Shown: positions 26,480-38,000 of the stretch, piece after piece
Numbering within the stretch: position 1 is the stretch's first letter
Layout of the letters: each line of letters starts with the position of its first letter
Source: Alphaproteobacteria bacterium
GTDB lineage: Bacteria > Pseudomonadota > Alphaproteobacteria > Bin65
Assembly (NCBI GenBank): GCA_021776685.1
Contig: JAJFFJ010000158.1
Coordinates: 1 to 40,859, forward strand
Direction of reading: 5' to 3'
Length of the DNA: 40,859 bases
Notes under the pieces: model-generated
Told to the model about the DNA's origin: nothing
Database searches by the model: none
The model's input: the letters and a program-made list of their open reading frames with translations, nothing else
Program-made: the position numbers and the translations under genes

Positions 26480-27886
26480 CTAGCGTTCCCGCAGAGATTC
26501 GTTGATGATTTTGGCAATCGGCTCGAAGAGGTAGTCGAGGACTGTCTTCTTGCCTGTCTTGATGTCCACCGAGGCGGTCATGCCCGGAATAATTGGCAGC
26601 CGCCGCCCTTGATAAAGCAGGTGATTGATGTTGGTCCGGATGCGAATCCGGTAGTAGGTCTCGCCTTGTTTCTTGTCGTCGTCGATGGCGTCCGCGCTGA
26701 TATCGATGACCTTGCCTTCCAGGCCGCCATAGATCGAGAAATCATAGGCGCTGAGCTTGACCGTCGCCGCCTGGTTTGGCCGCAGGAAGGCGCGGTCCTT
26801 GGGTTTGATTTTGGCCTCAACCATCAGGGTGTCATCCACCGGGACGATTTCGATAAGCGCCTGGCCGGGCTTAACGACGCCGCCAATGGTGCTGACGCCG
26901 ATCTGCTTGATGATACCGCGCACCGGCGCACGAAGATCGGTCCGGCGCACCCGCTCCTGGCTCGCGCCGATGCTGGGCTCAAGGGCCGCGATCTGGCTCA
27001 GGATAAGAGACAGGTCCTTGCGCACGTCCGCGAGGAAGGCTGCCTTCTTGTCCCGGACTTTTGCTTGTACTTCCCGTAGTGCTGACTGGGAGCGGCGCAC
27101 TGCAATTGTCTCCGTGCGCAGCTGGCCGGATGCCTTGTTGGTCTCGCGGCGGATCTGCTCAAGTTCCGACCGGGATACGGCGCCATTCTTGTAATCGCCT
27201 TCCGTTTCCCGAAGTTCCTGGCGCAGCGACGCCACACGTCGAGTCAGGGTCGATACCTTGCTGCGTGCCTCTGCATATTGCTGGCGGCGCTGGCTGACCT
27301 GCTGCGTCAACACATTCACTTCCGACTTGTGGCGAACCTGCCGGGAGGTAAACAGGCGGCGTTGCTCTGCTGCTTCCCGCGCGGCGTTCTGCAAAACACG
27401 CGGCGGAAAGGCGATGCGTTTGTGACCCTCTGCCTCGGCCCGCAGGCGCGCAGCGGCGGCCCGCAGCGAATAGTATTTCGCCAGCTTTTCACGGAACTGC
27501 GAATCTGAAACCGTGCTGTCGATGCGCATCAGCACCTGGCCACGCTCCACGCGCTGGCCTTCGCGAACCATAATGGCGGCCACAATACCGCCCTCCAAAT
27601 GCTGCACCACTTTGTTCTGGCCGGTTGGGATCACCTTGCCGTCGCCGCGGGTGATTTCGTCCAAAGTGGCGTAGTTGGCCCAGCCGAAAAACACGATCAG
27701 GAAGGCGCCGATCACCAGACACATATAAATACCGAACCGCCGCGCGCCCGCCTTGGCGACCAGGTCGGTGCTGGAGATCATGAATTCCGGATTGCTCAGG
27801 TCAGCGGAATCCGGGCCGAGCGGGCTGCCGGCCGGCCCCACGGCATGGTCCTGGGCTTTTTCTTCCTTGGTTCTGCGGCCGAACAT
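26480..27886 (-). CDS. HlyD-family type I secretion adaptor, second copy
   Basis: A 468-residue periplasmic adaptor. A cytoplasmic tail (1-50) precedes one membrane helix (51-70). Then come the barrel-sandwich half GDGKVIPTGQNKVVQHLEGGIVAAIMVREGQRVERGQ, a long alpha-helical hairpin (about 130-310) and the second half TDLRAPVRGIIKQIGVSTIGGVVKPGQALIEIVP, followed by a beta-barrel and LPIIPGMTASVDIKTGKKTVLDYLFEPI, the HlyD family end signature. It would bridge the ABC exporter and the TolC protein. It starts three bases after the stop of a second, related HlyD gene, so the two are co-translated; the pair probably arose by duplication. Confidence 0.93.
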   Translation of the reverse strand: MFGRRTKEEKAQDHAVGPAGSPLGPDSADLSNPEFMISSTDLVAKAGARRFGIYMCLVIGAFLIVFFGWANYATLDEITRGDGKVIPTGQNKVVQHLEGGIVAAIMVREGQRVERGQVLMRIDSTVSDSQFREKLAKYYSLRAAAARLRAEAEGHKRIAFPPRVLQNAAREAAEQRRLFTSRQVRHKSEVNVLTQQVSQRRQQYAEARSKVSTLTRRVASLRQELRETEGDYKNGAVSRSELEQIRRETNKASGQLRTETIAVRRSQSALREVQAKVRDKKAAFLADVRKDLSLILSQIAALEPSIGASQERVRRTDLRAPVRGIIKQIGVSTIGGVVKPGQALIEIVPVDDTLMVEAKIKPKDRAFLRPNQAATVKLSAYDFSIYGGLEGKVIDISADAIDDDKKQGETYYRIRIRTNINHLLYQGRRLPIIPGMTASVDIKTGKKTVLDYLFEPIAKIINESLRER

Positions 27887-27889
27887 CTC

Positions 27890-29233
27890 TTACTGCTCGA
27901 CCGTAGCGCGATTGTTGCTCTGGCTCTTGGTGATCGGCTTCATGATGTAGTCGAGCACGGATTTTTCCGTCCCCGTCATGATGTTCACTACCGCCGTCAT
28001 GCCAGGGATGATGGGTAGGCGCTTGCCGTTCTTTTCCAGGAAGCTACGTGATGTGCGCACCTGTACCTTGTAGAAGGCATCGTCGGGCCGATTGCTTTCT
28101 TCGATGGTGTCGGCGCTGACGCTGACCACCTTGCCTTTGAGCCCGCCATAGATCGCGTAGTCATAGGCGGTAATCTTTATCACTGCTGCCTGACCAATCT
28201 TCAGGAAGGCGCGGTCCGACGGGCGGATTTTGGCTTCGATCAGCAGCGAATCTTCCAGCGGGACGATTTCCACAAGCGGTTCGCCGGGCTTGACCACGCC
28301 ACCCCGTGTACTGATCCGCAGCTGTTTTATGGTGCCGCGTACCGGAGAACGGACTTCCGTACGGCTGACCTCGAAGTAAAGCTGCCGCATCCGCTGCTCA
28401 AGCTCGGACATCTTGCTGCGCACTTCGGTCAGTTCCTGCAGCACCTTTGAGCGGCTTTCATTGCGCTTGTCCTGAACCTTCTGGCGGGATTCGCGGATGC
28501 CTGCCTGATAGCGCGGAATTTTCAACGACTCGGTGCGGTGCTCGCCGCGCGCGTCACTCAGATCGCGTTGCAGGCGCAGAAATTCCAGTCTCGATACCGC
28601 CCCACGCTGCACCATCGGCCTGGCGCGGGCGACTTCAGCAGACAAGGATGCCACCCGTTTGGTCATGCTCGCTACCATGCTGCGCTGTTCTTTCAGCAAC
28701 TGTTCGCGCTGCCGCAATTGCTGGCGCAGGACGCCCAGTTCCGCTTCCACTTGCAATCGGCGGGTGCGGAAGACATTGCGCTGCTGGTTGGCGAATTTCG
28801 GCGCCTCGCGCAATACGGTGCGGGTGAACTTGATTTTCTTTCTACCCTTCGCCTGTGCCTCCAGGCGTGACGACCGGGCGGAGAGACTCAGATATTCCGA
28901 CCGCTTCTCTTCATAATCCGCTTTGCCGTCACGATTCTGAATGCGCAGCAAGACTTGGCCGGCTTTGACGATGTCGCCTTCTTTGACGAGGATCGCGGTG
29001 ACGATGCCACCGCGAATATGCTGCACGATCTGGTTCTGGCGGGACGGGATCACTTTGCCTTCGCCTTTGGTGACTTCCGGCAGGTTGGTCATCGACGCCC
29101 AGATCACGAACATCGCGAGCAGGGCGCCGATCAGGATAAGCCCCCACTTGGCGAGCTTGTGGGGTCGGCTGATCTGCGCAGCTGTCAGGTCCGACACCAG
29201 GTCCATATCATCGCGATGGCGCATGAGATCCAT
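27890..29233 (-). CDS. HlyD-family type I secretion adaptor, first copy
   Basis: A 447-residue adaptor with a short tail, a membrane helix (about 30-48), the lipoyl-like half GEGKVIPSRQNQIVQHIRGGIVTAILVKEGD, a long coiled-coil hairpin (about 110-295) and RSPVRGTIKQLRISTRGGVVKPGEPLVEIVP. It ends with LPIIPGMTAVVNIMTGTEKSVLDYIMKPI. It is collinear with the following HlyD gene yet clearly diverged, especially in the hairpin. Seventeen bases separate it from the exporter gene, with GGCGGA as its ribosome site. Most type I systems have one adaptor gene, so two may form a mixed complex or serve different states. Confidence 0.93.
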   Translation of the reverse strand: MDLMRHRDDMDLVSDLTAAQISRPHKLAKWGLILIGALLAMFVIWASMTNLPEVTKGEGKVIPSRQNQIVQHIRGGIVTAILVKEGDIVKAGQVLLRIQNRDGKADYEEKRSEYLSLSARSSRLEAQAKGRKKIKFTRTVLREAPKFANQQRNVFRTRRLQVEAELGVLRQQLRQREQLLKEQRSMVASMTKRVASLSAEVARARPMVQRGAVSRLEFLRLQRDLSDARGEHRTESLKIPRYQAGIRESRQKVQDKRNESRSKVLQELTEVRSKMSELEQRMRQLYFEVSRTEVRSPVRGTIKQLRISTRGGVVKPGEPLVEIVPLEDSLLIEAKIRPSDRAFLKIGQAAVIKITAYDYAIYGGLKGKVVSVSADTIEESNRPDDAFYKVQVRTSRSFLEKNGKRLPIIPGMTAVVNIMTGTEKSVLDYIMKPITKSQSNNRATVEQ

Positions 29234-29250: not shown

Positions 29251-32200
29251 TCAGTCTGTCGCGCCGCGGATCTGTCCGCGCGCAAGCGTCTCGATGACAC
29301 TGTCGCGCGGTCCGTCCGCCACGACCCTGCCGCCATCCATGACGATCAGGCGGTCCACCAGGGTCAGCAGCGAGACCCGCTGGGTGACCACAATCAGCGT
29401 CCGGCCTTCCAATGTCTCTTTCAGGCGCGAGATGAACCAGTCCTCGGATCCCTTGTCCATGGCGCTGGTCGGCTCATCCAGGATCAGGATCGACGGGTCG
29501 CGAACCAGCGCACGTGCGATCGCGATCGACTGGCGTTGACCACCGGACAGGTTTTCACCGCGCTCGCCCACCTGAAGGTCGAACCCGTGCGGGTGCTTGC
29601 TGATGAAGCTGTCCACGCCGGAGATACGCGCGGCGCGAAGGATCGCCGCGTCGTCCACATAGGGCGCGCCCATGGCGATGTTGTCTTTCACCGATCCGAA
29701 AAACAGGAAAATGTCCTGAGCCACATAGCCGATGTTGCGGCGAAGGTCGGCCGGGTCGACCTGTTTGATATCCGTGCCGTCGATGCGAATTGACCCTTCC
29801 CCTGGCGGATAGAGGCCCAGGATCAGCTTCTCGATGGTGCTCTTGCCCGACCCGATCTTGCCGATGACGCCCACACGTTCACCGGGCTTGATGGCGAAGG
29901 AGGCGTTCTCGACTGCAAGGATTTCCTGGTTGGGGTAGGTAAAGGAAACGTCGCGGAATTCGATGGCGCCACGGAGATTTGGGCGGTGAACGAATTGTTT
30001 CCCGGCCGGCCGTTCGATCGGCATGTTCATGACATTGTCGAGGGTTCTGAGCGACACCATCGACTGGTTGAAGCGAGTGAGGATACCCGCCACCTGGCTG
30101 AGCGGCGCCATGGCGCGGCCGGTCAGGATTGTGCAGGCGATCAGCGCGCCCACGGTCAGCTCGCCGTCGAAAATCAGGAAGACGCCAACGATGACAACGG
30201 CGATGGTGGTCAGCTGGGTTGTCAGCGACGTCAGGAACATGGCCAGTTGGGAGAGCGAGCGCGCTTTCTTGGAACTCTTCGAAGTCATGCCAACGAAGCG
30301 TTCCCAGTTGCGCTGCGTGCGGCCTTCAGCGCCCAGGCTCTTGATCGTTTCGAGACCGACGATGCTTTCCACAAGCAGCGCGTGCTTCTGCGCAGATTCC
30401 CGTGCCGTCTTGGCAACAACTTTGGTCAGCGGCAGTTGCAGGATCAGGCCCGCACCAATCACGACAGGCACCGCCGCAAGGGGCACAAAGCCCACCGGTC
30501 CACCAATCATGAAGACCACGCCGATAAAGAGAATGATGAAGGGCAGGTCGACCAAAGCCACCAGAGTGGCGGAGGTAAAGAAGTCGCGAAGTGTTTCAAA
30601 CTCGCGCAACTGGTTGGCAAATGCGCCGGCGGAGGCCGGCCGGGCGCCCATCTGGATGCCCAGGATCTGTTGGAAGATTGTGCTCGCCATGATGACGTCT
30701 GCGGACTGTCCGGCGGTATCGACGAAATAGGCACGCAGGTTTCGCAGTATGAATTCAAACGCAAAGATTGTGAGTACACCGAGCACAAGGACCCACAAGG
30801 TTTCATGCGCCTTTGTCGGCACGACCCGGTCATAGACGTTCATCACGAACAATGGGGTCGCCAGTGCAAACAGGTTGATGAACAGCGCGGCGACGATCAC
30901 TTGGGCGTAGATGCGCCAGAATTTGGCCAGCGTGCCCCAGAACCAGCTCTTGGTCGGTTTGATCTCTGTGGCTTCAGAGCGAGCATCGAACTGAAACTCG
31001 GGCCGGGCAAAGATGGTGTAGCCGGTATAGCGGGCCTTGAGCTGTTCCACCGGAACTTCGCTGATGCCGTGCCCGGATTCGGGCATGATGACATGGGCCG
31101 TCTTCTTGTCCTTGAGGCGCACCAGGACACAGGCTTTGGAATCGCCCAACAGCAGGACGGCCGGGAGTGATAGATCGGAGACATCGTCGAGATCGCGCTT
31201 GACGATGCGGGCGGAAAGGTCAGCGCGGGCGGCTGCACGCAGGAACAACTCCGGCGTCAGCCGGTCGTTGACCAACGGCAGGCCTGCCGTCAGGGCTTCC
31301 GCAGAATGGGGCCGTTCGAAAATCGCCGTCAGAACGACCAGCGAATCCAGCAGCGGGTCGTCTCGCCGGGACAAGCCTGCCGGCAGGCGCCAGGCGGCCC
31401 CAGGTGCTGCTGCTGGCGCATCGGGTGGCGGCGCCGGTGTATTCAGGTTCAGGGTTTCAGGGCCAGGCGCGGCACCTTGGGGTGGCAGCGCCTGGTCCAT
31501 TGTTAGCTCAATCGGGCCGCCGCCATTGTCCAGGGCAGGGCCGGCGGCAGGCGGTATGGGCTGTTGCGGAGGGGCAGGGCGCGCATTTGGAGCCGTCGCG
31601 GGCTGCGCGTGCTCATCCGGGACTCTTGCTTGCGCCGGCGGTTGCGCGGGCCGGCCCATCAGGCTCGGTGGCGGGGTCCTGCGTATCTCGGCAAACCTCG
31701 GATCGTTTTGCGGGTTTGCTTGGGCAGCGGCGCCTGCTCCCTGTGTTGGCGGCGGTACTGCCGCGGGTGACTGGCCCTGCATAGAAGGATTGGCGGCGGC
31801 AGCCGGTTGTGCTGATTGCGTTGAGCCTGCTGCGCGCGGCCCAGTTGGTGCGCTCGCTTGCGTCTGGCTGAATTCGTCGTCTTCTCGCCCACCCAGGGCG
31901 ATGGGCTGGATATTGGCCGTCCGTGGTGCGGCTGCGCGCTGTGCTGGCGCTGCAACAACGGCTGGTCGGCCCCCGGGGGCCGCGGGAGAAGGGCTGGGCT
32001 GTATGGCAGCGCGTGCGGCCTGGGGGTTGGCCATTGCGGCATTGGCCGCCGGCCGGGGAGGTTGCGCTACGTGAATTGGGGGAGGCGCCGATGCGGATGG
32101 CGCCGCGGGTCTTGGGGGCGGGGCAGCCGTCGGGCCACCCACCGTGGTGTCGGTCGGTGCGCCGGCGGGTTTGAGCCTGATTGGCGGCCCTGCATAGTCT

Positions 32201-32397
32201 GAGGAAGGCGCCAGGGGCGATGGTGCGGGCGCAGACGGAGACGCCCCACCCGCCAATTGGCGCATGGGGTGTCCGGCACCAGGCGGCGGCGCATTTGGAA
32301 TTGGCGCAGGCTGTCCGCTGAAATTGCCAGAAAACTCACCTGCCGGCCCAGGCGCCGGGGGAGAGTCGCTGTTGTTTTTTTTCGACTTCCAAAACAA
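29251..32397 (-). CDS. LapB-like type I secretion ABC exporter with Pro/Ala-rich N-terminus
   Basis: A 1048-residue exporter. About 340 residues of Pro/Ala/Gln-rich, probably unfolded sequence come first, then a C39-like domain (about 345-470) without the catalytic Cys, as in exporters of uncleaved substrates. Membrane helices lie in about 490-790, and the ATPase domain in about 809-1048: Walker A GKIGSGKST (Lys852), Q-loop AQDIFLF, signature LSGGQRQ and Walker B ILILDEPTSAMD. The H-loop His is replaced by Gln1006 (VVTQRVSLL). The start is TTG with GGAGGAG ten bases upstream. The two HlyD genes follow, and the likely substrate is the giant adhesin encoded downstream of the divergent tolC-like gene. 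Confidence 0.93.
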   Translation of the reverse strand: MFWKSKKNNSDSPPAPGPAGEFSGNFSGQPAPIPNAPPPGAGHPMRQLAGGASPSAPAPSPLAPSSDYAGPPIRLKPAGAPTDTTVGGPTAAPPPRPAAPSASAPPPIHVAQPPRPAANAAMANPQAARAAIQPSPSPAAPGGRPAVVAAPAQRAAAPRTANIQPIALGGREDDEFSQTQASAPTGPRAAGSTQSAQPAAAANPSMQGQSPAAVPPPTQGAGAAAQANPQNDPRFAEIRRTPPPSLMGRPAQPPAQARVPDEHAQPATAPNARPAPPQQPIPPAAGPALDNGGGPIELTMDQALPPQGAAPGPETLNLNTPAPPPDAPAAAPGAAWRLPAGLSRRDDPLLDSLVVLTAIFERPHSAEALTAGLPLVNDRLTPELFLRAAARADLSARIVKRDLDDVSDLSLPAVLLLGDSKACVLVRLKDKKTAHVIMPESGHGISEVPVEQLKARYTGYTIFARPEFQFDARSEATEIKPTKSWFWGTLAKFWRIYAQVIVAALFINLFALATPLFVMNVYDRVVPTKAHETLWVLVLGVLTIFAFEFILRNLRAYFVDTAGQSADVIMASTIFQQILGIQMGARPASAGAFANQLREFETLRDFFTSATLVALVDLPFIILFIGVVFMIGGPVGFVPLAAVPVVIGAGLILQLPLTKVVAKTARESAQKHALLVESIVGLETIKSLGAEGRTQRNWERFVGMTSKSSKKARSLSQLAMFLTSLTTQLTTIAVVIVGVFLIFDGELTVGALIACTILTGRAMAPLSQVAGILTRFNQSMVSLRTLDNVMNMPIERPAGKQFVHRPNLRGAIEFRDVSFTYPNQEILAVENASFAIKPGERVGVIGKIGSGKSTIEKLILGLYPPGEGSIRIDGTDIKQVDPADLRRNIGYVAQDIFLFFGSVKDNIAMGAPYVDDAAILRAARISGVDSFISKHPHGFDLQVGERGENLSGGQRQSIAIARALVRDPSILILDEPTSAMDKGSEDWFISRLKETLEGRTLIVVTQRVSLLTLVDRLIVMDGGRVVADGPRDSVIETLARGQIRGATD

Positions 32398-33105
32398 AGC
32401 GGCGGAACTCCTCCGAATTCATCCGGTTAATCTATTGATTCTAGCAGATTGCTCTACGCAGTCCAAATAATCAATGCGTCTTATTTTGACACTACTGGCA
32501 AAAATTGCATTTGATTACATGAATGCGTCGGCGCTGGCTGCCCTTTGCGGTTTTGTTGGGCGAAGTGTGACCGCGCGGGGTTAAGAACGCGTTTATGTTT
32601 ACGTAGCTGATGGCAAAATTATGCCTGAATTTTAACGCGCACCCTGGCTTTGTTTCACTGGGCTACCAGCGCGAACAGGATGCAGCGCACTCAGATTTTT
32701 CCGCCTGAACGGGCAACAGCAGCCATGGCCGAGCCAAGTGATGTATAGTGTGTTTGCTTTATGTTTATATTAACCATATTTCCTTATGGTAAACCTTTAC
32801 TGATTATTTACTTGTAAAAGATATCGAGAGCATGCAATGTGCAAGAGCAAATGTGAGTATGTGTTTTTCCATAAATTCGTTTGGTCATATTTGTTGCTTG
32901 AAGACCCGATTGCTTGGCGCTGTATGCACAGGTGGCCGCTGTGTCGTTGTTGAATGGTTCATCAACGCCAGATTGGGTTGAAAATTGCCGGCGGCCTGAA
33001 GATGTTTGGCCGTCCTGGGGATTCACAAAGCGGACTCTCTGTCATATGGTGGAGACGACGCACGGAAGGCGAATGGGAATGACAGGCACCAGCGGGAACA
33101 CCCAC
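32398..33105. other. 708-base gap between the divergent exporter and tolC-like genes
   Basis: No protein gene is supported. The middle (about 32460-32900) is much poorer in GC than its surroundings, as expected for a regulated promoter region. It holds an inverted repeat with TTAACCAT at 32770, a TTAA-N7-TTTA near-match to the CtrA box at 32581, and the leader of the tolC-like gene. An in-frame extension of that gene up to 32914 has no family similarity. Confidence 0.55.
32770..32793. promoter_or_regulatory. inverted repeat with CtrA-like TTAACCAT half-site
   Basis: TTAACCATA (32770-32778) and TATGGTAAA (32785-32793) are reverse complements at eight of nine positions around TTTCCT. The left arm contains TTAACCAT, the reported CtrA half-site, and its first 12 bases TTAACCATATTT also occur at 13440 in the rpfF region. 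Confidence 0.5.
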
Positions 33106-34578
33106 ATGCGCATTCAATCGGTTATCAAGGCGTCGGCGGTTGCCGCGACCATCGCTTTGGCGGCAGGCCTTGCCGGGACGGCGGGAGCACTGACCCTGAA
33201 GGAAGCGGTCCAGCGTGCGATCACGACCCATCCTGAGGTGGGCGCTATCCGGGCCAACCGGCGGGCGATCGAACAAGAGCTTCGACAGGCGCGGGGTCAG
33301 TATCTGCCGTCCATCGACGCACGGGGCGCCTTCGGCCATGAGTTCAGCAATAATCCGACAACGCGGGGACGCGCGGGCCGGACCAACGGCGAAAGCGGCT
33401 GGATAGATATGAACCGCTTCGAGGCGGGCGTCAGCTTGCGTCAGCTGGTTTATGATGGCCTCGGCACCGTGTATGACATCAGGCGTCAGCAAGGCCGGGC
33501 TGAATCGGCGCAATACAGAGTCGCTGATACAGCCCAGGCGATTGGGCTCCGTGCAGTCGAGGCGTTCCTCGAGGTTCAGCGCACACGGCTGATTATCGCA
33601 ATTGCCGAGCGCAATGTGAAAATCCACGAACAGATCCTGCAGCGTGTGCGGGCCCGGTCCACAAGTGGCCGCGGACCGCGGTCGGACGTCGACCAGGCGC
33701 TGGCGCGTGTGGCTGCGCAGAAGGCTGCGCTGGCCCAGGCGCGGGGCCGTTTTGAAGATGCGATTGCCGCCTACATCCAGGCTGTTGGCGAGAAGCCGCC
33801 GGCATCCCTGACCAGCGTGGCCGCGCCCGAGAGTGACCTTCCGTCCAATATTGACGAGGCTGTTGCCATGTCGCGGGAGAAGGCTCCGTCGATCATGGCG
33901 GCGGCGGCTGACATCCGTTCCGCGGCTGCTGCCGTGGGTGTGGCCGATTCCCGATTCATGCCAACTGTGACGATCGAAGCATCCTACAACTGGCTCTATA
34001 ACGTGGACGGTGTTCGCGGTCCGAATCAGGAATTTATCGCCATGGTTGTGGGTCGGTGGAATCTGTATCGGGGCGGCATCGACCTTGCCCGCCGCCGGGA
34101 AGCGGTCCACCGCATGTTTGAGGCGCGCAACAATCTGGGCCGGACCCAGCGCGAAGTCGCCCAGCAGGTGCGCCAGTCCTGGAATGCTCTGAATGCTGCA
34201 CGCGAGCGTCGGGTGGCGATTCGCCAGCAACTGGCGGCCAATTCACGTGTCCGGGTGGCCTATTCCCGCCAATTTGACCGTGGTCGCCGCACATTGCTTG
34301 ATCTCCTGGACATCCAGAACGAAATCTTCACCAGCGAAACCGCGCTGATTACTGAAGAGTTCACCATCAAGTTCGGCGTCTATCGCGTCCTCGCCACCAT
34401 GGGCATCCTGGTGCAGAAGATGGGCCTGAAATTGCCAGTGGAGGCAACCCGGGCTCCGGCACGTACATTCTTCAAGGACATTGCAGACGGTGACCAGTTC
34501 GCCAAACAGAAGGGCGTTGGCCGTGATACCAGAGGTATCATCCGCTCAAACACCCGCTGGCCCCGTTCGCGCCCCTAG
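33106..34578 (+). CDS. TolC-family outer-membrane protein of the type I system
   Basis: A 490-residue outer-membrane efflux protein. A signal peptide (MRIQSVIKASAVAATIALA to about residue 28) is followed by two TolC repeats: LTLKEAVQRAITTHPEVGAIRANRRAIEQ with ARGQYLPSIDARG, and NIDEAVAMSREKAPSIMAAAADI with ADSRFMPTVTIEASY. Both repeats have the expected long helices. The ATG at 33106 places the signal peptide at the very N-terminus, with GGGAA eight bases upstream; ATGs at 33073 and 33079 are alternatives. It is divergent from the exporter operon and upstream of the adhesin, and would be the outer-membrane exit channel (LapE-like). Confidence 0.9.
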   Translation: MRIQSVIKASAVAATIALAAGLAGTAGALTLKEAVQRAITTHPEVGAIRANRRAIEQELRQARGQYLPSIDARGAFGHEFSNNPTTRGRAGRTNGESGWIDMNRFEAGVSLRQLVYDGLGTVYDIRRQQGRAESAQYRVADTAQAIGLRAVEAFLEVQRTRLIIAIAERNVKIHEQILQRVRARSTSGRGPRSDVDQALARVAAQKAALAQARGRFEDAIAAYIQAVGEKPPASLTSVAAPESDLPSNIDEAVAMSREKAPSIMAAAADIRSAAAAVGVADSRFMPTVTIEASYNWLYNVDGVRGPNQEFIAMVVGRWNLYRGGIDLARRREAVHRMFEARNNLGRTQREVAQQVRQSWNALNAARERRVAIRQQLAANSRVRVAYSRQFDRGRRTLLDLLDIQNEIFTSETALITEEFTIKFGVYRVLATMGILVQKMGLKLPVEATRAPARTFFKDIADGDQFAKQKGVGRDTRGIIRSNTRWPRSRP

Positions 34579-35033: not shown

Positions 35034-38000
35034 ATGGCTGCTCATAACGACTCCACTCCGGGCACCCCGAACAGCAACGGCAACGAGACTGCCGAAAATC
35101 GCAGTTCGGAAAGCGTCGGCGACATGTTCGCCCAGAAGGTATCGACCATTACGGTGCCGGCGCCGGATGCCAACAAGGTGATCACCATCAAGGTGGAAGC
35201 CGGGCGCACCCTGCAGCTCAAATTCAACAACCCCGACGTGGTCAAGCGCGAGGTCGTCGACGATGACCTGGTGCTGCTGTTCAAGAATGGCGGCAAGGTT
35301 GTCCTGCAGGACTATATGGAAGCCTTCGGCCTGATGGCCGACATCCCCACCAAGGTTGTCCAGGCCGATGGCAAGAGCTTCCTGCTGCCGGATCTGCTGG
35401 ATGTGGCGTCTGGCCCGGGCAAGCCGTCGACCCCCTCCGGCCGTTCAGATACGGCCGACGTTGTCAGCACGCCCATCACTGTCGACCGGCCCGGCGAAGG
35501 CCAGGACAAGGTCGTCACCATGCGCTTCGGGCGCGGTGTTAAATTCAATTTCAATTCCGGGGACGTTGCCGCCTCAAAACTTGACAGCGACGGCAATCTG
35601 ACCCTCAGCTTCAATGACGGCGGGTCGATCAAGCTGGTGGGCTGGCAGGCCGTTGCCGCCAAGGCGTCGCTCACGGCGATCTTCAATGACAAGTCCATTG
35701 CGCTGATTGAACTGCCGAATACAGCCGCAGGCGATGACCTGGCGCTGGATGGCACCAACAATTTCGGCGCCGCGGACGTGGGCGCCATTGGCCCTGGCAT
35801 CGACCATCTGGGGCCCCTGGGCAATGAATTGCTCCGCTTCGGCACAGTCGATCCTGATCCGACGATCTTCGGAACTCCGGGACCGCGCACGCCGCCGCCT
35901 CCGGGTGCTAACCCGCCGGTGGTGCTGCCACCAGTGATTGGTGGTGGGCCTGTGGTCGCGCCACCCGTCATCGTCATCAACTCGCCGATTGCGGAAGATG
36001 CGCAGCCGGGCGCGCCGTCGCCGGTGACGTTCACGCTCAACACGCAGAATGTGGACGACGAGCTGGTCTTTTTCCGCATGGGAAATATCGAGGGCGACTG
36101 GACCGTCGTCAGCACCTCAGCCAATGTGGCGACCAGTAGCATTGTTGTCGGCGTGGACCCGAACAACGCGGGCAAGCAGCAGGTTGTCTTCACCTTCGAC
36201 CTGGGTGCAAATCCCGGTCTTGATACCGCGGAAGTCACCGTCAACTTTGCCCTGACGGCCGTTTCAATTCAAGATTCTGATGTGGATGACGGGGTCATCC
36301 TGCACGCCCAGACGCGGGACACGACCAGTCCTGCGGTCGTCGCCAATACCTATGGCTCACATGTCATCCAGATTGATGCGATCCTGGATCATTTTGTCGA
36401 TCCTCTGCAGACGGCAGTGCCGACCACGAATACCAACGGCGCCGTCGCCATCGACCTGAATCTGGATTCAAACGGAACAATGACGGCCTTTACCGGCGCC
36501 AACAACGGTGGCTTTGACACCGATGGTTCCGAGCGGGTGACGAGCCTCAAGATCACGATTTCCGATACAGCCGGAACTGTTTCGCTGGGCGCAGGCGCGC
36601 CGGCCGGCGTATTCCAGATCGACAATCTGGGCGGCGGCGTATTTGAACTCAAGGCCCTGGGTGGCGGCGCGCTGACCACAGTCACAATCGCAAATGTCAT
36701 GGATGCCATCGACGACCTGGAATACCAGGCGTCGGCTGGTTTCGGCGGCACCATGAACGGCACGCTGGAAGTCACCACAGCGGAAACTCTGACAGGCGCG
36801 GGCAGTGTCTTTTCACCCCTGCCGCCGGCCCCACCGACTCCGGGTACAGAGGGTATTCCCGGTGTGGTTCCCGCAGGCGACATCGTGGCCTCCTTCGGCC
36901 CCGCTGTGACGGAAGAAAACCTGCTTGACGATTCGGTCACGGACTCGGTGAACTTCCAGGTCAATGTCCGTCAGCCGGAATGGACCATTATGGGCCCCGG
37001 CACGGTGACCGAGGGGACGCTGCTGGCGCCGCTCTATACCCTGGACGTTGCCAACCTGACCCCCAATCTGCTGGGCGCAGGCGAAACGATCTCGCTCGAC
37101 CTGACGCTTAATCTGCCAGGTGGCGTTGCAGGCGCGGAGGCGGCCGATTTCATTCAGTCCTTTGTGGCCGATGTGACCACCGCGCTTGGCCCGCTCAATG
37201 TGGGTGTCGCCGATCTTGGTGGCGGTCTGAATCTGCGGCTGACTTTCAACAATACAGTTGCCGTGAATTCCTTCCCGTTCGATTTGCCGACATTCGATGA
37301 CACAATCTTCGAGGGCAACGAGAATTTCTCCGTCACAATCTCGAACCCAATGGTCAATGCCGGCGCCGGCGGCGCGATTGTTGGCGGCCCGACGATCAAC
37401 ACCACGATCATCGACAATGATGGGGCGCCCATCGTCACCATTGGCGACGCGACGGTTGTCGAGGGCGCCAATCTCGATTTCACAGTCACATTGTCGAATC
37501 CGAGCGCGGAAACCATCACCCTCAACATGGGCACAACCAATGGCACGGCCACGGGTGGTGTCGATTTCCTGACTCTGCCGATGCAGATCAATGTTGCAGG
37601 TGGCGGGTTTGTGCCGACTACGGCGATCACATTCGCCCCCGGGGAAACCTCCGCCGTTGTGCGCATCAACAGCTTCGACGATGCTTTCGTGGAAGGCGAC
37701 GAGACTTTCACACTACAGGTGAATTCCGTTGGCGTCGGCACAGTTGGCAATTCGTCGGACACCGGGCTCGGTACGATTCAGGACAATGATGTTCTGACGC
37801 CTGACGTGGCGATTTCGGACGCCGCCAATACCGAAGGCGGCTTCCTCGACTTTAACGTCACTCTCACTCAGTCGCCGGCCGCGGCCGTGACGCTGCAGAT
37901 GGCGCTCGCGGATGTGACCGCAACAGGTGGCGCCGCGCCATTAGTCTTCCCTGAGGACTATCAGAACACTAACGTTCTGGTCAGCGTGAATGGCGGCCCA

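Follow-up and report, generated by a model that had tools for sequence, protein, structure and literature searches.

The giant adhesin gene at the end of the window (the whole 40,859-nucleotide stretch of DNA analysed here, which is the entire contig C66 of a 4.54 Mb genome that is 98.9% complete) probably encodes a surface protein whose release is gated by c-di-GMP in a Dvh-like manner, with a LapG-type protease cutting a TAAG site and an HD-GYP protein restraining that protease. The initial annotation had proposed a releasable adhesin controlled through LapD and LapG; the protease side of that proposal stands, but LapD does not, and a DvhD-like HD-GYP protein is the likelier receptor. Release of surface adhesins is poorly known outside the Gammaproteobacteria, and one HD-GYP-based system has been described, in sulfate reducers (Font et al. 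2026, PMC13090378). On our reading, a related release circuit can now be placed in many Alphaproteobacteria, with a cleavage site that is testable by one protease assay and a receptor family whose conserved residues show where to mutate.

Work on the Lap and Dvh systems has established that the adhesin is held in a TolC-type channel by its N-terminal domain, which remains in the periplasm, that a LapG-type protease cuts between two alanines, and that at high c-di-GMP a membrane receptor restrains the protease (PMC13090378). In the Dvh system of Desulfovibrio vulgaris, made up of DvhA (DVU1545), DvhG and DvhD, DvhG cuts [T/A/P]AAG and DvhD gates DvhG (Font et al. 2026, PMC13090378). For the present genome we infer retention, cleavage, c-di-GMP binding, the direction of control and the role of this adhesin as substrate. 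Two tandem BapA_N-like beta domains would stay periplasmic and hold the adhesin in a TolC-type pore on the cell surface, and the linker would be cut between A231 and A232 by a periplasmic cysteine protease of LapG type, whose gene is on contig C131, so that the adhesin slips off. A divergently encoded dCache-PAS-HD-GYP protein would bind c-di-GMP without hydrolysing it and, at high c-di-GMP, would restrain the protease in the way that DvhD restrains DvhG in Desulfovibrio. The protease-receptor pair (C131) and the adhesin (C66) lie on separate contigs, and the pair is not in the operon of the adhesin and its type I secretion system (T1SS).

The adhesin and its secretion genes

The adhesin frame begins with an ATG at 35034 on the forward strand and is still open at the contig end (35034-40859), giving an N-terminal portion of 1942 amino acids with a body of Calx-beta repeats (Pfam, 163.6 bits). 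A tight profile of this adhesin (A2) has four named relatives, metagenome-assembled genomes labelled Alphaproteobacteria or Candidatus Odyssella. At the locus, Rfam gave zero families above threshold, and scans for promoters and terminators yielded no usable prediction.

A full type I secretion set adjoins the gene. It comprises a TolC-type outer-membrane protein with a LapE-like role (32914-34578, forward strand; TIGR01844, 290 bits against a cutoff of 225), an LssB/LapB-type ABC exporter (29251-32397, reverse strand) and two HlyD-type adaptors, also on the reverse strand (27890-29233 and 26480-27886; TIGR01843, 373 and 398 bits against a cutoff of 209). Adhesin exporters of the LapB kind have a C39-like domain that lacks the catalytic cysteine. 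The present exporter has such a cysteine-less domain and scores 989 bits with TIGR03375 (cutoff 693), which bears out its earlier description as LapB-like. About 340 residues rich in proline and alanine precede the C39-like domain in this frame, and the start (TTG) is uncertain. Most type I systems have one HlyD-type adaptor gene; here two stand in tandem (26480-29233) downstream of the single exporter gene.

AlphaFold2 places two beta domains at the adhesin N-terminus, at about residues 38-123 (35145-35402) and 146-210 (35469-35663), with pLDDT mostly 70-90; the second is also apparent from alignment with relatives. The first domain is BapA_N-like by a weak, local match (residues 53-96, E 0.008) that lies below both cutoffs (PF22783, 16.3 bits against 27; NF033677, 14.6 against 35). 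Residues 210-295, which include the TAAG site, have pLDDT below 50. The model as a whole is weak (mean pLDDT 55, pTM 0.32), built on a shallow alignment of 5 sequences; it nonetheless predicts that TAAG sits in a disordered linker with no sign of burial. The order of parts in the initial annotation, with TAAG after a folded N-terminal region and before a Pro-rich linker (about residues 282-313, 35877-35972), is thus recovered. Structural comparison named no relative for the retention domain: the top Foldseek hits in the PDB, at TM below 0.25, were not meaningful, and VIA-align reached a middling Z of 6.8 at best, matching portions of large proteins that are unrelated.

Further adhesin pieces are present in the same genome. 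A second giant adhesin on contig C68 (L115:6658-17496) has at least 3613 amino acids and is open at the contig end; it shares the segment GxGIxHLxxLGNExLxFG, ahead of which stands DVESSG and no [TPS]AAG. The start of contig C58 falls within the C-terminal half of an adhesin (L114:2-4861; 1620 aa), in which Calx-beta and vWFA are found along with RTX-like repeats and a tract rich in Gly, Thr and Lys. This piece may continue either the C66 or the C68 adhesin: its end does not overlap that of the C66 gene, and the C68 adhesin also runs off its contig end.

The candidate cleavage site

The TAAG at residues 230-233 (35721-35732, forward strand), a candidate LapG-type site with cleavage expected at A231|A232, was located as originally reported and is the only [TAP]AAG in the 1942 residues. 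Other xAA[GV] tetrapeptides are AAAV at 949, FAAG at 1257 and DAAV at 1889. By composition shuffling, TAAG would occur somewhere in residues 1-320 with P 0.017 and the looser [TAP]AA[GV] with P 0.12. With so modest a P value, and with TAAG also found twice in the C58 adhesin fragment, well away from any N-terminal linker, the four residues taken alone are weak evidence.

Its position says more. We gathered homologous N-termini from relatives in the family and the class and read them in frame. Most share a G-P-L-x-x-[T/E]-x-L-x-[F/Y] segment after the beta domain or domains, which in the present adhesin is GPGIDHLGPLGNELLRFG (residues 253-270, 35790-35843), a downstream landmark. [TPS]AAG occurs in the 60 residues before this segment in 15 of 24 linkers, against 1.25 +/- 1.07 in shuffled linkers (maximum 6 in 3000), counted with an anchor pattern that was hand-written after viewing these same sequences and among homologues that are not independent. 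Control motifs made by permutation, among them [TPS]AGA and [TPS]GAA, occur in 0 or 1 of the same 24. In 13 of these 15 linkers, the distance from the start of the last [TPS]AAG to the segment is 30-36 residues (30 in this adhesin), and the site is often preceded by I/V/L and then E/D/Q (IEPAAG, IQTAAG). Nine of the 24 linkers have no [TPS]AAG, the C68 adhesin included. Eleven matches with no recognisable anchor were left out of the count, and two of these (L007 and L008) have PAAG. Positional conservation in sequence thus lifts the site above chance, and the initial suggestion of a LapA-style T1SS adhesin, with an N-terminus of the retention type and a site of the LapG type, is supported.

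Two sites lie 4-25 residues apart in 8 of the 15 [TPS]AAG-bearing linkers. Paired [T/P]AAG in one linker (L009, L015, L027, L029, L031, L033, L034 and L035; for example IEPAAGDDIANTLANIEPAAG) are possibly duplicated cleavage sites.

The LapG-type protease

A search for a LapG homologue, suggested by the initial annotation, found one. The genome holds a single Peptidase_C93 (BTLCP) gene, on C131, whose product of 245 amino acids matches PF06035 with E 1.6e-20 (74 bits, cutoff 27) and has a hydrophobic N-terminus, the motifs GDCED, AHAVL and ILDNQ, and an intact C-H-D triad and D-C-E calcium motif (DCED). Among solved structures it is nearest to the LapGs 4u65 (E 5.5e-22) and 4fgo. Against the LapG equivalog NF045674 the protein scores 107 bits (cutoff 320); by sequence it is LapG-like and not a LapG equivalog. 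In a midpoint-rooted tree of 73 sequences, it groups with alphaproteobacterial proteases that adjoin HD-GYP genes, next to two LapGs (the node joining LapG has support of only 0.62); the strong-scoring PF06035 proteins found in the class fall elsewhere in the tree.

A protease of this family could have another target altogether and the TAAG could be incidental, as might be expected if the protein acted like HvyA, a BTLCP protein that controls capsulation in Caulobacter (PMC4241560). The stray copies and P value of TAAG fit that reading, as does the frequency of C93 proteins in the class, where 114 of the 385 genomes surveyed have one. It is set against the fixed position of the site, the co-occurrence of adhesin and protease described below and the place of the C131 protease in the tree; moreover, the adhesin occurs in 0 of 21 genomes that have only strong-scoring PF06035 proteins, a count that bears on HvyA only if HvyA belongs to that group. 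We regard an incidental TAAG as unlikely and retain the C131 protease as the candidate that would cut it.

The receptor candidate

Directly divergent from the protease gene lies a gene for a protein of 713 amino acids with two hydrophobic segments. PAS_4 and HD_5 score above cutoff, and dCache_1 is sub-threshold (E 4.7e-5; 23.5 bits against 45). Its best PDB relatives, 9rc0 (E 2.9e-45) and 9rbz, are both DvhD of D. vulgaris, and other solved HD-GYP proteins match it far less well. In DvhD numbering (Font et al.), the metal ligands have changed from HD to LN, HH to AR, the third His to Ala and the metal Asp to Asn, with one His kept. The protein is apparently enzyme-dead, HD-GYP catalysis having been lost to judge from these residues. 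Loss of these ligands extends almost without exception to 26 relatives whose genes lie close to a C93 gene. All 26 have L577, R650 and an Arg at position 520; P567 is found in 25 of them, and an aromatic residue stands at position 523 in 24. With ligands lost and pocket residues kept, these relatives look as non-catalytic cyclic-dinucleotide receptors would be expected to. The present candidate keeps L577, R650, P567 and a basic residue at 520, and differs from DvhD at the c-di-GMP contacts Y523N, K582M, Y621R and Y652H; being less typical at these four positions, it can be credited with c-di-GMP binding by inference only. With six GGDEF domains and one EAL domain encoded, this genome is likely to use c-di-GMP signalling, and the candidate probably reads c-di-GMP in place of LapD.

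The canonical alternative, in which a true LapD controls LapG as the initial annotation had it, draws on the joint presence of a LapG-type protease, a LapB-type exporter and TAAG. The receptor it calls for did not appear: LapD_MoxY_N has no match at E 10 in this nearly complete genome, the sole EAL protein is a PAS-GGDEF-EAL protein, and among the 385 class genomes LapD_N and this adhesin type never overlap (0 of 10 LapD_N-bearing genomes have the adhesin). Canonical Lap control with LapD is largely refuted by sequence, and we give it very little chance; the HD-GYP protein is the receptor that we carry forward.

Linkage and co-occurrence in Alphaproteobacteria

The 385 genomes contain 59 strong matches to the receptor, 44 of them no more than 3 kb from a listed C93 gene and 40 of those divergent from it. 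A second receptor type, in which HD is mostly replaced by SQ as in DvhD, adjoins a C93 gene with the same orientation in 10 of 11 cases, and seven loci of this type (L062, L067, L070, L075, L081, L090 and L092) have the order exporter-adaptor-protease-receptor. L062 and L070 hold both receptor types. In some relatives (L062, L070, L099 and L103), T1SS genes neighbour the protease-receptor pair.

C93 proteins are found in 26 of 28 genomes with this adhesin and 88 of 357 without it (p 4e-13), and, when taxonomic families are counted, in 15 of 16 with the adhesin and 45 of 157 without it (p 4e-7); both are Fisher tests that ignore finer phylogeny. The two adhesin genomes that have no C93 protein (G103 and G308) have no AAG in the linker, and G308 has TASG there. 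In the family of the present genome, two relatives have both adhesin and C93, one relative, 74% complete, has the adhesin without C93, and seven genomes of a sister genus have neither.

The HD-GYP receptor is not universal among adhesin genomes. It was not detected in five genomes of the class that have both adhesin and C93 (G088, G145, G241, G245 and G326) or in the relatives G001 and G003. Beside the protease genes of receptor-less adhesin genomes, a search for an alternative receptor lent that idea no support: of five neighbours tested, four are housekeeping genes (PfkB kinases, Tex) and one has no Pfam match. LapG-like protease genes with no adjoining HD-GYP receptor also occur in adhesin-bearing genomes at L055, L060, L065, L066, L074 and L134-L137.

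It is conceivable that TAAG is cut by the protease without HD-GYP gating, release being constitutive, controlled by calcium or governed by another receptor. The receptor-less adhesin genomes and the c-di-GMP contacts missing from our own candidate would agree with this, but the linkage of protease and receptor is strong in both the 40 divergent loci and the same-strand type, the receptor family has lost its catalytic residues while conserving other pocket residues, and DvhD provides a precedent (PMC13090378). We hold ungated release to be improbable, if somewhat less so than an incidental TAAG, and favour gating by the HD-GYP protein.

Beyond this genome, it seems somewhat likelier than its opposite that a widespread LapD-independent circuit exists in which a dead dCache-PAS-HD-GYP subfamily, encoded divergently from a LapG-type protease, controls BapA_N-like T1SS adhesins with [T/P]AAG sites. 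The subfamily is defined by [M/L]N replacing HD and Asn in place of the metal Asp, and the adhesins by [T/P]AAG sites that are positionally fixed and often in tandem. If this is true, HD-GYP control would not be peculiar to Desulfovibrio and would commonly take the place of LapD. In the open-licence literature, the Dvh work was the sole precedent for LapG with TAAG, LapG with HD-GYP or BapA with LapG. The word Alphaproteobacteria is absent from the main text of that paper, and its figure 9b, which gives a class-level distribution, may already document part of this spread (PMC13090378).

Comparison with known systems

The system is best described as Lap-like in its working and, by the LapD test, not canonical Lap; it would be a Dvh-like variant in Alphaproteobacteria. 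With Dvh it shares a T1SS adhesin with a beta-rich N-terminal domain and a [T/A/P]AAG site, a LapG-type protease and a dCache-PAS-HD-GYP protein with a dead HD-GYP domain, which matches the DvhD PAS/HD-GYP structure as noted above; the metal Asp is Asn in both DvhD and the receptor candidate. It differs in that the pair is divergent and on a separate contig, whereas the Dvh pair is in the T1SS operon, and in that HD has become LN here (MN in most relatives) and SQ in DvhD. Other c-di-GMP contacts have also changed in the receptor candidate, and the present adhesin has tandem BapA_N-like retention domains with the site 230 residues in.

The Lap system of Pseudomonas fluorescens (LapA, LapG and LapD) has the same protease family, site motif, exporter type and overall logic. 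LapA substrates have a DP motif before TAAG (PMC13090378), whereas here no DP precedes the site, no LapD was found and the retention domain is another one. The BapA_N prefix of alphaproteobacterial and enterobacterial T1SS adhesins (PF22783, NF033677) is likewise a short beta-rich N-terminal domain, but the present adhesin scores below both cutoffs and has two copies in tandem. HvyA of Caulobacter belongs to the same Peptidase_C93 family and has the C-H-D triad, but it acts in capsule control, and linkage to an adhesin and an HD-GYP protein is not described for it (PMC4241560). Dvh is the nearest described counterpart of the circuit proposed here.
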